DNA from: Bacteroidales bacterium | GTDB lineage: Bacteria > Bacteroidota > Bacteroidia > Bacteroidales > F082 | Length of the DNA: 49,197 nucleotides | NCBI GenBank assembly: GCA_018399335.1 | Contig: JAGYNM010000003.1 | Span: 1 to 49,197 of the forward strand | Direction of reading: 5' to 3' | Translations under genes and position numbers: made by a program | The notes under the pieces: model-generated | What the model was told of the DNA's origin: nothing | The model's input: only the letters and a program-made list of their open reading frames with translations | The model's database searches: none | Shown here: piece after piece, positions 44,342-49,197 of the stretch | Layout: each line of letters begins with the position of its first letter | Position numbering within the stretch: the stretch's first letter is position 1

Positions 44342-45690
44342 ATGAATATTGTGATAGCCGGTGATGGAGAGGTAGGTTTGCATTTGGCGGAGGCCCTTGT
44401 AAATAGCAACCACAATATCACCATTGTTGACCCGCACGAAGATTTACTTTTAAAATGATTGAGTCGCATACCGACCTGATGACCATCATCACAGGCGATT
44501 CGACTTCAATCAGCGTTTTGCGTGCCAATGTGCGCAAGGCTGATTTGTAATTTCGGTTGTTCATGATGAGCATATCAACCTGATGACTGCCATTCTGGCC
44601 AAGAAATTAGGTGCACAAAAAGTGATTGCCCGGCGTAAACACCATGGAAAACCTGAGCGCCGACAGGCTGAAAATTTATCAGGAACTAGGCATCGACGGA
44701 CTGGTTTCGCCCGAGGATATTGCTGCCCAGGAAATCATCACCTTACCAAGCAAACAGCTGCTACTGAAGTATTTGATTTTTCAGATGGCAAGCTTCAACT
44801 TTTTATGATCAAACTTTTGAGCACGGGAGCACCTGTTTTGCATAAAACACTCAATGAGATTGCCAGCGAATACAAACACGCTTGATTTTCGTGCCATTGC
44901 CGTGCACCGCAACCGCGAAACTTTTATACCTCGTGGCGAGGGACGTTTTGAAGAAAACGATCTGTCGTATGTAATTACAAAGCCTGAGGCCATCAACAAC
45001 CTGCTCAGCATGGGCGAAAGTGCACCACGACATTCACAATGTAATGGTTGTAGGCGGCGGACGTGTTGGTCGAATGACTGCCAAACGGCTCGAAAGGACA
45101 TGAACATCAAATTGATTGAAAAAGACAAAGAGCGCCAGCTGTATATTTCTAACCGATTATCTTGAAATACCTTTTGTAAATGGCGATGCGCGCAACCTTC
45201 AACTGCTCGAAGATGAAGATGTGCGCAGCATTGATGCCTTTATTGCCGTAACCGATAATACCGAAACCAACATCCTAACGTGTTTGCAGGCGCGCGCATA
45301 TGGCGTTAAGAAAACCATCGCCCTGGTCGAAAATATTGATTATATCGACATCTTCAAAACATTGGTATTGATACCATTATCAACAAAAAACTGATTGCTG
45401 CCAGCTATATGGTGCGTTACACCATGGGTGCCGAAGTAACCTCACTCAAATGCCTGAGCGGTATTGATGCTGATGCCATGGAACTGATTGCCAGGCCAGG
45501 CTCTGCCGTAACACGCAAACCCATTCGCAAACTAAACATCCCCGAAGGTGCTATCATAGGAGGTATAGTGCGCGGCGAAGAAAGCTTTATTGCCATGGGT
45601 GATTTTCAGATTGAAGAAAACGACAAAGTTGTTGTGTTTGCCCTTCCGCATGCCATTCATAAAATCGAAAAGCTCTTTTCATTAAAATCA
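44342..45690 (+). pseudogene. trkA: Trk potassium uptake protein TrkA, frameshifted
   Basis: MNIVIAGDGEVGLHLAEALVNSNHNITIVD; VMVVGGGRVGRMTAKRLE; FVNGDARNLQLLEDEDVRSIDAFIAVTDNTETNILTCLQARAYGVKKTIALVEN. Confidence 0.88.
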
Positions 45691-45694
45691 TACT

Positions 45695-47146
45695 ATGAAA
45701 GCTTTATGCGTAAAAATAAACTTCAGTCTGATCATCAGAATCATCGGATTTCTTTGGTGATTGAAGGTATTTTTATGTTTACTGCTTTGCCGTTTACTAT
45801 AAATATTGCATCTGAATGTTATGCCATACCCATTTCCGGAACAATCACAATCGTTTTGGGAGGCCTGATGTTTCTGCTTAACAGAAATCTTTCTAAAAAT
45901 ATCGGCAAGCGCAGAAGGTTTTATCATTGTAACATTCAGGTAAGCTTTATCGTTTCCACTGCCTTATTACATCAGTGGTACCATACCCAGTTTTTCGGAT
46001 GCCTTTTTCGAAACAATCTCGGGTTTTACAACTACAGGCGCTACCATTCTTACGGATATTGAGGCCATGCCCAAAGATTTGCTTTACTGGCGCAGCCTCA
46101 CACACTGGCTGGGTGGAATGGGAATTATCGTATTCACAGTAGCCATCTTGCCGATTCTAGGAATTGGCGGCATGCAGCTTTTTATGGCCGAAATGCCCGG
46201 CATTACTTACGACAAACTCCACCCCAGAATTACAGCTACAGCCAAGCGGTTATGGGGAATTTATGTTTTACTAACTTTACTGCAAACCCTCTTGCTTTGG
46301 GCGGGCGAGATGGATTTTTTTGACGCTATCAATCATGCTTATGCCACGATGGCAACAGGCGGCTTTTCGACGCGAAATGCAAGTATAGCCGCATTTTCTC
46401 CATACAGCCAATATGTTATCATCGTATTTATGATACTTGCCGGAACTAATTTTACGCTTCATTATTTTGCTCTGCATGGTAAAGTTGCCCGCGTTTTTAA
46501 AGATGAAGAATACCGTGGATACATTGCCATAATTGGAATAATTACTTTTATTATCGCCGCTGGATTGCTAATCGTGGGCAATACTCATCCTGAAGCGGCT
46601 TTCCGTGATGCTTTGTTTACTGTTACATCAATTTTAACCACTACCGGTTTTGCAACAGCCAACTACCTGATGTGGCCTACTATCCTCTGGATGTTGATCT
46701 TTGTGCTGATGTTTATAGGAGGATCGGCAGGATCAACAGGTGGCGGAATGAAGATTATCAGACAGATGCTTTTACTTAAAAATTCTTGGATGGAGCTAAA
46801 AAGGGCTATTCACCCAAATGCTGTGTTGCCCGTTCGTTTCAACAAGAAATCTGTATCGCAGGATACCATTTACAAGGTGATGGCATTCTTTCTGATGTAT
46901 GTTCTGATCTTCTCGATGGGAATGATTGCGCTCTCGGCAATGGGTCTTGATTTTCAGACTGCTGTTGGGGCTTCGATTGCCAGTTTGGGTAATATTGGCC
47001 CAGGAATCGGAAATGTGGGTCCTGTTGATAATTATGCTTTCATGCCATTGGGAGCCAAATGGCTACTCGCCTTTATGATGCTGATGGGGCGTCTGGAAAT
47101 TTTTACTGTACTAATCCTGTTCTCACCACAATTTTGGAAGCGTTGA
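45695..47146 (+). CDS. trkH: Trk potassium uptake protein TrkH; 5' about 350 nt frameshifted, intact from about 46.0 kb
   Basis: GFTTTGATILTDIEAMPKDLLYWRSLTHWLGGMGIIVFTVAILP; GGSAGSTGGGMKIIR; intact ORF 46067-47146. Confidence 0.9.
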
Positions 47147-47244: not shown

Positions 47245-47781
47245 ATGAAAACAATGACCAAACTCTTACTCCTTTTGGCTGTGGTTGCTTTACTCAGTCC
47301 GGGATGTGAAAAAGCCAAAGATTTGCTCGATGTTAAATTCGATGCCAACTTCAAAAGTGATCTGAATATTGATGTGCCAGCTGGTACCAAAAGCGCAACT
47401 TTCGGTGCTGAGGCTACCATCGACCCTCAATCAAACACTGATTTTGCTGAATATGGAAGTAAAATCAAAGAAATTGAAATAAAAGAAGCAAAAGCTACAA
47501 TCCTTGCCATCAACAAAACCGTTGTACTGGAAAACGCTGAGATTTCTGTTACCTCAGGCAGCATGACACCAGCAAAGTGGAGTTTCAGCAACGAAAACTT
47601 AGCTGTTGGAACCGTGCTTACTTTAGGCAACGATAGCGGACAATGGGATAATGTTCAGGCAATTTTGAATACACAAAATGCTTTTACAACTGCCATTAAT
47701 GGAACAGTGAGTGAAGACGATGTTCAGTTTACGCTTCAAATCGAAATCAAAACAAGCGTAACAGCTAATCCGCTCGACTAA
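47245..47781 (+). CDS. Small lipoprotein, hypothetical
   Basis: ATG at 47245; MKTMTKLLLLLAVVALLSPGC lipobox. Confidence 0.75.
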   Translation: MKTMTKLLLLLAVVALLSPGCEKAKDLLDVKFDANFKSDLNIDVPAGTKSATFGAEATIDPQSNTDFAEYGSKIKEIEIKEAKATILAINKTVVLENAEISVTSGSMTPAKWSFSNENLAVGTVLTLGNDSGQWDNVQAILNTQNAFTTAINGTVSEDDVQFTLQIEIKTSVTANPLD

Positions 47782-47800: not shown

Positions 47801-47840
47801 AAAAGCGGCTGGCAAATAAATTTGCCAGCCGCTTTTATTT
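47801..47840. terminator. Bidirectional terminator between convergent lipoprotein and ssb genes
   Basis: Perfect 16-bp stem AAAAGCGGCTGGCAAA-taaa-TTTGCCAGCCGCTTTT. Confidence 0.93.
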
Positions 47841-47854
47841 ATTCCTGTTCGGAT

Positions 47855-48181
47855 TTAGAAAGCCAAAATTTCGTTTACTACAACCTCAACCTGATAGCGC
47901 TTGTTACCATCTTTGTCTTCCCAGCTGCGGTTTGTCAGCTTACCCGAAACAGCAAGCTCTTTGCCTTTTTTAACAAGCTTTTCAACTACCTCAGCAGATT
48001 TTCCCCAGGCCACAAGCTGATGCCATTGGGTATCTTCTACCCGCTCGCCTTTCTGATCATAGTAATAGCTGTTTGTTGCAATGGAAAATCGGGCCATTTT
48101 GCGCTCTTTGTCAAATGATTTAATTTCCGGATCCATGCCTGCACGGCCGATAAGTTGTACGAAGTTATTTAATGATGTCAT
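47855..48181 (-). CDS. Single-stranded DNA-binding protein paralog 1 (short, tailless)
   Basis: MTSLNNFVQLIGRAGMDPEIKSFDKERKMARFSIATNSYYYDQKGERVEDTQWHQLVAWGKSAEVVEKLVKKGKELAVSGKL...; OB-fold SSB motifs. Confidence 0.93.
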   Translation of the reverse strand: MTSLNNFVQLIGRAGMDPEIKSFDKERKMARFSIATNSYYYDQKGERVEDTQWHQLVAWGKSAEVVEKLVKKGKELAVSGKLTNRSWEDKDGNKRYQVEVVVNEILAF

Positions 48182-48236
48182 GATTTTCAAGTGTTTATTG
48201 ATTAATAAAATGCAAATTTGATTGTGATAGTTGCAA

Positions 48237-48578
48237 TCAGCTGGCAACTTTGGTGAATGTATGAATTTGATTCAATACAACCTCCACAAAATAGCGGGTG
48301 TTACCATCTTTGTCTTCGTAGGTGCGGTTTGTAAGCTTGCCGGTTATGGCAATTTCACTACCTTTCCTGACTATTTTTTCTACCACTTCTGCAGTTTTTC
48401 CCCAGGCAACCAGCTGATGCCACTGAGTATCTTCTACACGTTCGCCTTTCTGGTTATAGTAATAACTGCTAGTAGCCATCGAAAAACGGGCCATTTTACG
48501 GTCTTTGTCAAATGTTTTAATTTCAGGATCTTTTCCTGCGTGACCGATTAACTGTACATTGTTACTTAATGTTGTCAT
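48237..48578 (-). CDS. Single-stranded DNA-binding protein paralog 2 (short, tailless)
   Basis: MTTLSNNVQLIGHAGKDPEIKTFDKDRKMARFSMATSSYYYNQKGERVEDTQWHQLVAWGKTAEVVEK...; start at ATG 48578, with a TTG three codons upstream. Confidence 0.93.
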   Translation of the reverse strand: MTTLSNNVQLIGHAGKDPEIKTFDKDRKMARFSMATSSYYYNQKGERVEDTQWHQLVAWGKTAEVVEKIVRKGSEIAITGKLTNRTYEDKDGNTRYFVEVVLNQIHTFTKVAS

Positions 48579-48644
48579 GATTTTCAAGTATTTAATGAAT
48601 GAATAAGTGTTGAATTCAATAATGGATTTAAAAATTTGATGAGG

Positions 48645-48974
48645 CTAGCTCACGCTGCGGATTTCATTCAATACGATTTCCACTTTTGTGCGTTTTTGTC
48701 CACTCCGGTCTTCCCAATTCCAACTGCTCAGCTTTCCGCTAATGGCGACTTTCTTGCCTTTTTTTACCTGCATTTGAACCACATCGGCAAGCTTGCCCCA
48801 GGCTACCACCTGATGCCATTGAGTTTTTGAGATACGCTCCCCATCTTCGTTTGTTGAAGCACTGTTGGTTACAAATGCAAAACGTGCCATTTTTCTTGTG
48901 TTTTCCAGATTTTTAATCGTTGGATTGTTGCCGGCGCGACCGGTCAATTTTACGCTGTCGTTTAATGTTGTCAT
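48645..48974 (-). CDS. Single-stranded DNA-binding protein paralog 3 (diverged, tailless)
   Basis: MTTLNDSVKLTGRAGNNPTIKNLENTRKMARFAFVTNSASTNEDGERISKTQWHQVVAWGKLADVVQMQVKKGKKVAISGKLSSWNWEDRSGQKRTKVEIVLNEIRSVS. Confidence 0.92.
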   Translation of the reverse strand: MTTLNDSVKLTGRAGNNPTIKNLENTRKMARFAFVTNSASTNEDGERISKTQWHQVVAWGKLADVVQMQVKKGKKVAISGKLSSWNWEDRSGQKRTKVEIVLNEIRSVS

Positions 48975-49035
48975 GATTTTCAAGTGTTTAATGAATGGAT
49001 AATGATTCTAATTCAGTAACGGGATTGTGTTCGTC

Positions 49036-49197
49036 TCAGCTCGCAAGTTTTCCAAAGACCTGGATTTGATTCAGGACAATCTCAACAGCATAACGCTTGT
49101 TGCCTTCCTTGTCGTCCCAGCTGCGGTTGGTCAGCTTGCCTGAAACAGCAAGCTGTCTGCCTTTTTTTACAAGTTTTTCAACTACTTCTGCTGTTTT
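49036..49197 (-). CDS. Single-stranded DNA-binding protein paralog 4 (C-terminal half; gene runs off the window)
   Basis: Minus strand, absent from the ORF track: KTAEVVEKLVKKGRQLAVSGKLTNRSWDDKEGNKRYAVEIVLNQIQVFGKLAS*. Confidence 0.9.
   Translation of the reverse strand, partial: KTAEVVEKLVKKGRQLAVSGKLTNRSWDDKEGNKRYAVEIVLNQIQVFGKLAS

Follow-up and report, generated by a model that had tools for sequence, protein, structure and literature searches.

The acidic tail of the canonical bacterial SSB recruits partner proteins. SSBs without this tail are known mainly from competence in the Firmicutes. In B. subtilis and S. pneumoniae, SsbB is an alternative SSB that is expressed only in competence (PMC3128108). 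In Bacteroidetes, a non-canonical LexA has been reported, and in some species ssb (COG0629) is under the motif CTAA-N5-TTAG (PMC8565304). In Riemerella, HHH, ComF and YifB genes are of importance for transformation (PMC8459023). Here we analysed a window of 49,197 nt from a Bacteroidales bacterium, which is the entire contig C149 of a draft genome (2.3 Mb, 77% complete) and ends inside an ssb gene. The array of tailless ssb genes at this end is a real, maintained, genus-level multiplication of one known accessory SSB.

The first-pass annotation had described three complete and one truncated SSB gene on one strand, and these were confirmed at 47855–49197 on the minus strand (Table 1). They are designated A, B, C and D in the order of transcription, and the intergenic gaps are 61 nt (A-B), 66 nt (B-C) and 55 nt (C-D). 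In the PF00436 profile search that the annotation had proposed, C, B and D passed the curated cut-off at 89–102 bits and were assigned by score to the TIGR00621/PF00436 SSB family, and the fragment of copy A scored 45 bits. The AlphaFold models of C (pLDDT 89.8) and B (pLDDT 90.4) have the SSB OB-fold, and the structures nearest to the B model in Foldseek were solved SSBs. The array proteins have the OB-fold and the aromatics (W or Y) at W54, F60 and W88 in common with canonical SSBs, i.e., that of E. coli and the tailed copy of the same genome. However, as annotated, every copy lacks the linker and the DDDIPF-like acidic C-terminal tip, so that none is a canonical tailed SSB, and B also lacks an aromatic at the position of E. 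coli W40. A tail hidden behind a sequencing-error stop was ruled out, because the 55–66 nt between the genes are too short for a frameshifted tail. The canonical tailed SSB was located on contig C146, where it follows a mutY-like gene; it has 162 aa and ends in TDDLPF.

Table 1. Features at the right-hand end of the window.
Feature	Position	Strand	Basis or remark
Tailless SSB copy A, 3' part (last 53 codons)	49036..49197	minus	Contig end cuts gene
Tailless SSB copy B, divergent paralog, 109 aa	48645..48974	minus	PF00436, AlphaFold, tree, residue comparison
Tailless SSB copy C, 113 aa	48237..48578	minus	PF00436, AlphaFold
Tailless SSB copy D, 108 aa, last in probable operon	47855..48181	minus	PF00436
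Terminator-like hairpin, 16-bp stem, between the convergent ssb array and small lipoprotein-like gene	47801..47836		
Small lipoprotein-like gene, convergent to ssb array	47245..47781	plus	No Pfam match

The array proteins resemble Firmicutes SsbB in that they are OB-fold proteins of ~110 aa, have no acidic tip and are accessory to a tailed essential SSB. Against the SsbB family NCBIfam PRK06752 (112 aa), however, C and D scored 52–58 bits and B 35, below the cut-off of 189, and the present genus differs by its four tandem copies rather than one and by an operator with 10.5-bp repeats. Within Bacteroidota, a single tailless SSB is ordinary. Among 36 further genomes of the family, the majority had at least one, of ~110–118 aa, and named matches came from Flavobacterium, Aquimarina, Salegentibacter, Winogradskyella, Chitinophagaceae and Saprospiraceae. 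One copy was present at 71 of the 80 named loci; pairs and triples also occur, as in Flavobacterium orientale (two) and Salinimicrobium nanhaiense (three). The tailless SSB of Flavobacteriaceae, Chitinophagaceae and Saprospiraceae is the same type of protein behind the same operator, often with a zinc-finger gene divergent from it, but these families usually have one copy, rarely two or three, whereas this genus has four. The array has therefore arisen by expansion, in this lineage, of an accessory gene that is already known. The early judgement that the locus is unusual holds for the size of the array, four diverged copies maintained beside a normal tailed SSB, but not for tailless SSBs themselves, and small tandem sets recur in the phylum. 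Descriptions of tandem tailless ssb were not found in the open-licence PMC papers searched.

Copies were counted in six congeners. Exactly four tailless ssb genes were present in five of them (G001, G002, G003, G005 and G006), whereas G004 had a single one. The order A-B-C-D is common to these five, with intact orthologs of A in all, which shows that the array is no assembly artefact. The lipoprotein-like gene, trkH and trkA are kept beside the array in most congeners. The dN/dS values between species were 0.02–0.21 for all four copies, indicating purifying selection, and were lowest for B between close relatives.

A candidate control element was found upstream of the first tailless ssb. The operator is a ~60-bp array of ~10.5-bp repeats of the TTACAAACG type with about six sites, as in TGACAAACGGTTACAAACGATTATATCCGTATGTACTCGGTAATCATACGACT from congeners in this genus. 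The operator of the window itself is deduced from these congeners, since the contig ends inside copy A. TAnnTTTG is the promoter box of Bacteroidota, and such a box lies ~20 nt 3' of the operator at a fixed distance and is followed by a conserved leader. The autocorrelation of the operator peaked at 10–11, 20–21 and 30–31 bp (z about 20 at 10), a periodicity as would be expected for a protein touching one face of the helix. Of the 80 named Bacteroidota loci, 75 had their top PWM site immediately before ssb, with a score >20 in 65, and no other site in the same loci scored above -8. Across Bacteroidia the operator recurs before tailless ssb genes, whereas tailed and phage ssb do not have it; none was found at 80 viral ssb loci. 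Scans of 37 and 32 genomes placed the strongest site nearly always at tailless ssb. With model R2, which was trained on genomes other than the 32 scanned, 29 of the 32 matched, and almost all of these had their best site beside a tailless ssb. What is best supported is an operator essentially dedicated to tailless ssb, usually with no other strong target. In this genus, a single operator site precedes the array and the strong terminator-like hairpin follows it, which makes a single operon of all four genes probable.

The Bacteroidetes SOS regulon (PMC8565304) also has an operator for DNA-metabolism genes and belongs to this phylum, but its published LexA motifs are not those of the tailless ssb: CTAA-N5-TTAG, GGA-N5-TCC and the E. 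anophelis variant were found in 0 of 33 operators tested. SOS control through these motifs was therefore rejected. No description of an operator sequence with these 10.5-bp repeats, or of DUF2116, was found in the open-licence PMC papers searched. The first-pass annotation had regarded the array as its best candidate for an undescribed system; the array does not carry that claim, but the operator together with a zinc-finger gene, both outside the view of that annotation, is apparently an undescribed element.

The zinc-finger gene encodes a protein of ~115–125 aa with a treble-clef zinc finger and weak similarity to DUF2116. Of 23 zinc-finger/tailless ssb pairs that are divergent, 20 have the operator between the two genes. 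The gene was present in all 37 genomes searched of the family f1, and in G041, G044 and G048, each with a second short SSB; it was absent from most genomes with canonical ssb only, with weak matches in G058. Among 148 genomes of the class, 83 had both zinc finger and operator, 13 the zinc finger only, 7 the operator only and 45 neither (Fisher 8e-19, in a test that ignores shared ancestry). The source genome carries the gene on contig C53. From its co-occurrence with the operator, and its frequent divergent position across it, the zinc-finger protein appears to be the best candidate for the regulator. It could instead be a functional partner, because the f1 gene is usually elsewhere in the genome without an operator.

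We favour, with moderate confidence, a four-gene accessory SSB operon under the control of the operator, with the zinc finger as the likely switch. Dedicated regulation is probable because the promoter carries a ~60-bp array of helically phased sites. A dedicated regulator would probably switch the operon on through the TAnnTTTG promoter with its phased sites, and the co-occurring ~115-aa treble-clef protein is the candidate for this switch. A burst of tailless SSB would shield ssDNA without drawing in the partners that the tailed SSB has in replication and repair, and might be used in DNA uptake or ssDNA stress. More tentatively, there may be a Bacteroidia unit in which the zinc finger reads the phased operator and switches on tailless SSB. 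Such a unit would be separate from the SOS response and from known competence circuits; prophages, integrase-like recombinases and repeat cassettes would have borrowed it, and in this genus it would drive a four-gene, possibly heteromeric SSB operon. A tailless SSB with its own operator across the phylum, accompanied by a candidate regulator, offers a handle on when Bacteroidota coat ssDNA without repair partners, and a testable entry to the control of DNA uptake or ssDNA stress, which is poorly described in this phylum.

The four copies could be interchangeable and merely raise expression. A, C and D are mostly 67–80% alike and were resolved only in part in the tree, and in G003 (L038) the DNA identity of A and D reaches 95%, with 3' ends shared with C, as though homogenised; this identity suggests gene conversion within that array. 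We nevertheless consider pure dosage unlikely in view of copy B. In the tree, the B orthologs group together and have the divergent second genes of genus g13 as their neighbours (support 99/91), and B is therefore, on the sequence evidence, a distinct and old paralog. It evolves slowly and consistently lacks the aromatic at the W40 position. The four copies are probably dosage plus a modified subunit: the extra copies would add dosage, and mixed tetramers containing B may bind DNA differently, as B lacks this aromatic. The array is a natural case for testing whether SSBs act as mixed tetramers.

Competence use of tailless SSB is plausible, and in its fullest form these proteins would do in Bacteroidota what SsbB does in Firmicutes, being induced in a competence regulon and protecting incoming transforming ssDNA. 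In being short and tailless, they share the anatomy of the B. subtilis and S. pneumoniae SsbB. Where a genome has many sites, operators stand before a comM, before DUF2851 genes and a gene of the ComEA-like HHH type, and before genes for an exonuclease and a Y1 transposase; the ComEA-like gene, with three HHH, is in G674, the comM/YifB gene in G602, and ComF-like genes follow the operator in two prophage regions of G006. These HHH, ComF and YifB types matter in Riemerella transformation (PMC8459023). However, 30 comM loci were examined and had no operator, and 30 DUF2851 genes likewise lacked one close upstream; the strongest match at a DUF2851 locus (L429) lay >1 kb upstream of the gene. This direct test does not support a general competence regulon. 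No comEC or dprA site was recognised either, ssb was not listed among the hits of the Riemerella Tn screen (PMC8459023), and the comM site of G602 may be incidental, because operator copies have exploded generally in that genome. We regard the SsbB-counterpart reading as rather improbable, and the operator-controlled accessory operon as preferable. The two G006 regions (L274, 4210–4875; L275, 3844–4423) are prophage-like, with terminase-like genes, and have a ComF-like phosphoribosyltransferase behind the tailless-ssb operator.

A role of the operator regulon in site-specific recombination or in the transposition of ssDNA, with tailless SSB feeding the reaction, is quite improbable. The operator does lie upstream of integron-integrase-like tyrosine recombinases in G018 (L276), G299 (L315) and G314 (L318), between the recombinase and a divergent zinc-finger gene in the first two; the same divergent pair was found in G036 (L339). 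It also precedes a Y1 (IS200-like) transposase in G644 and occurs in repeated cassettes of G602 and G674. Against this, in most genomes tailless ssb is the only place with the operator, and the array locus is inherited vertically with the trk genes in the genus. At L318 the recombinase stands alone behind the operator. Many dispersed operators were observed in G602 (L352–L366), G674 (L369–L373) and G694 (L387), each before short repeated cassettes that are apparently non-coding, such as ACTTGGGTAGGGGGCGGTAGCCCCC and GGAGGGTGGCTCGCGGCCGGCC; among the repeat-cassette loci checked with Rfam, only a tRNA matched. In three genomes (L372, L379 and L386), operator-like sites lie 12–28 nt upstream of genes for four-helix-bundle (23S rRNA IVP/bAvd-like) proteins.

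SSBs can occur in defence loci, and a defence-linked module had been among the first suggestions for the array, but this is very improbable and unsupported: no PADLOC model matched, conserved defence neighbours were not found, and the 80 viral ssb loci have no operator site. A phage origin of the array was likewise rejected, since viral homologs reach 53% identity at best and have no operator. The reading of the copies as an assembly duplication or as decaying duplicates, to which the position at a contig end and a degenerate array in G013 could point, can be almost wholly dismissed, with window copies just 58–78% identical in DNA, the same four-copy arrays in five other assemblies, and purifying selection.

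The G013 array (L049) carries stop codons in its tailless ssb genes behind an intact operator, and such arrays can therefore decay. In the trkA/trkH region of the window (44583–46070), several overlapping short ORFs correspond to larger homologous ORFs in relatives, and they are probably split by frameshift errors of the draft genome.
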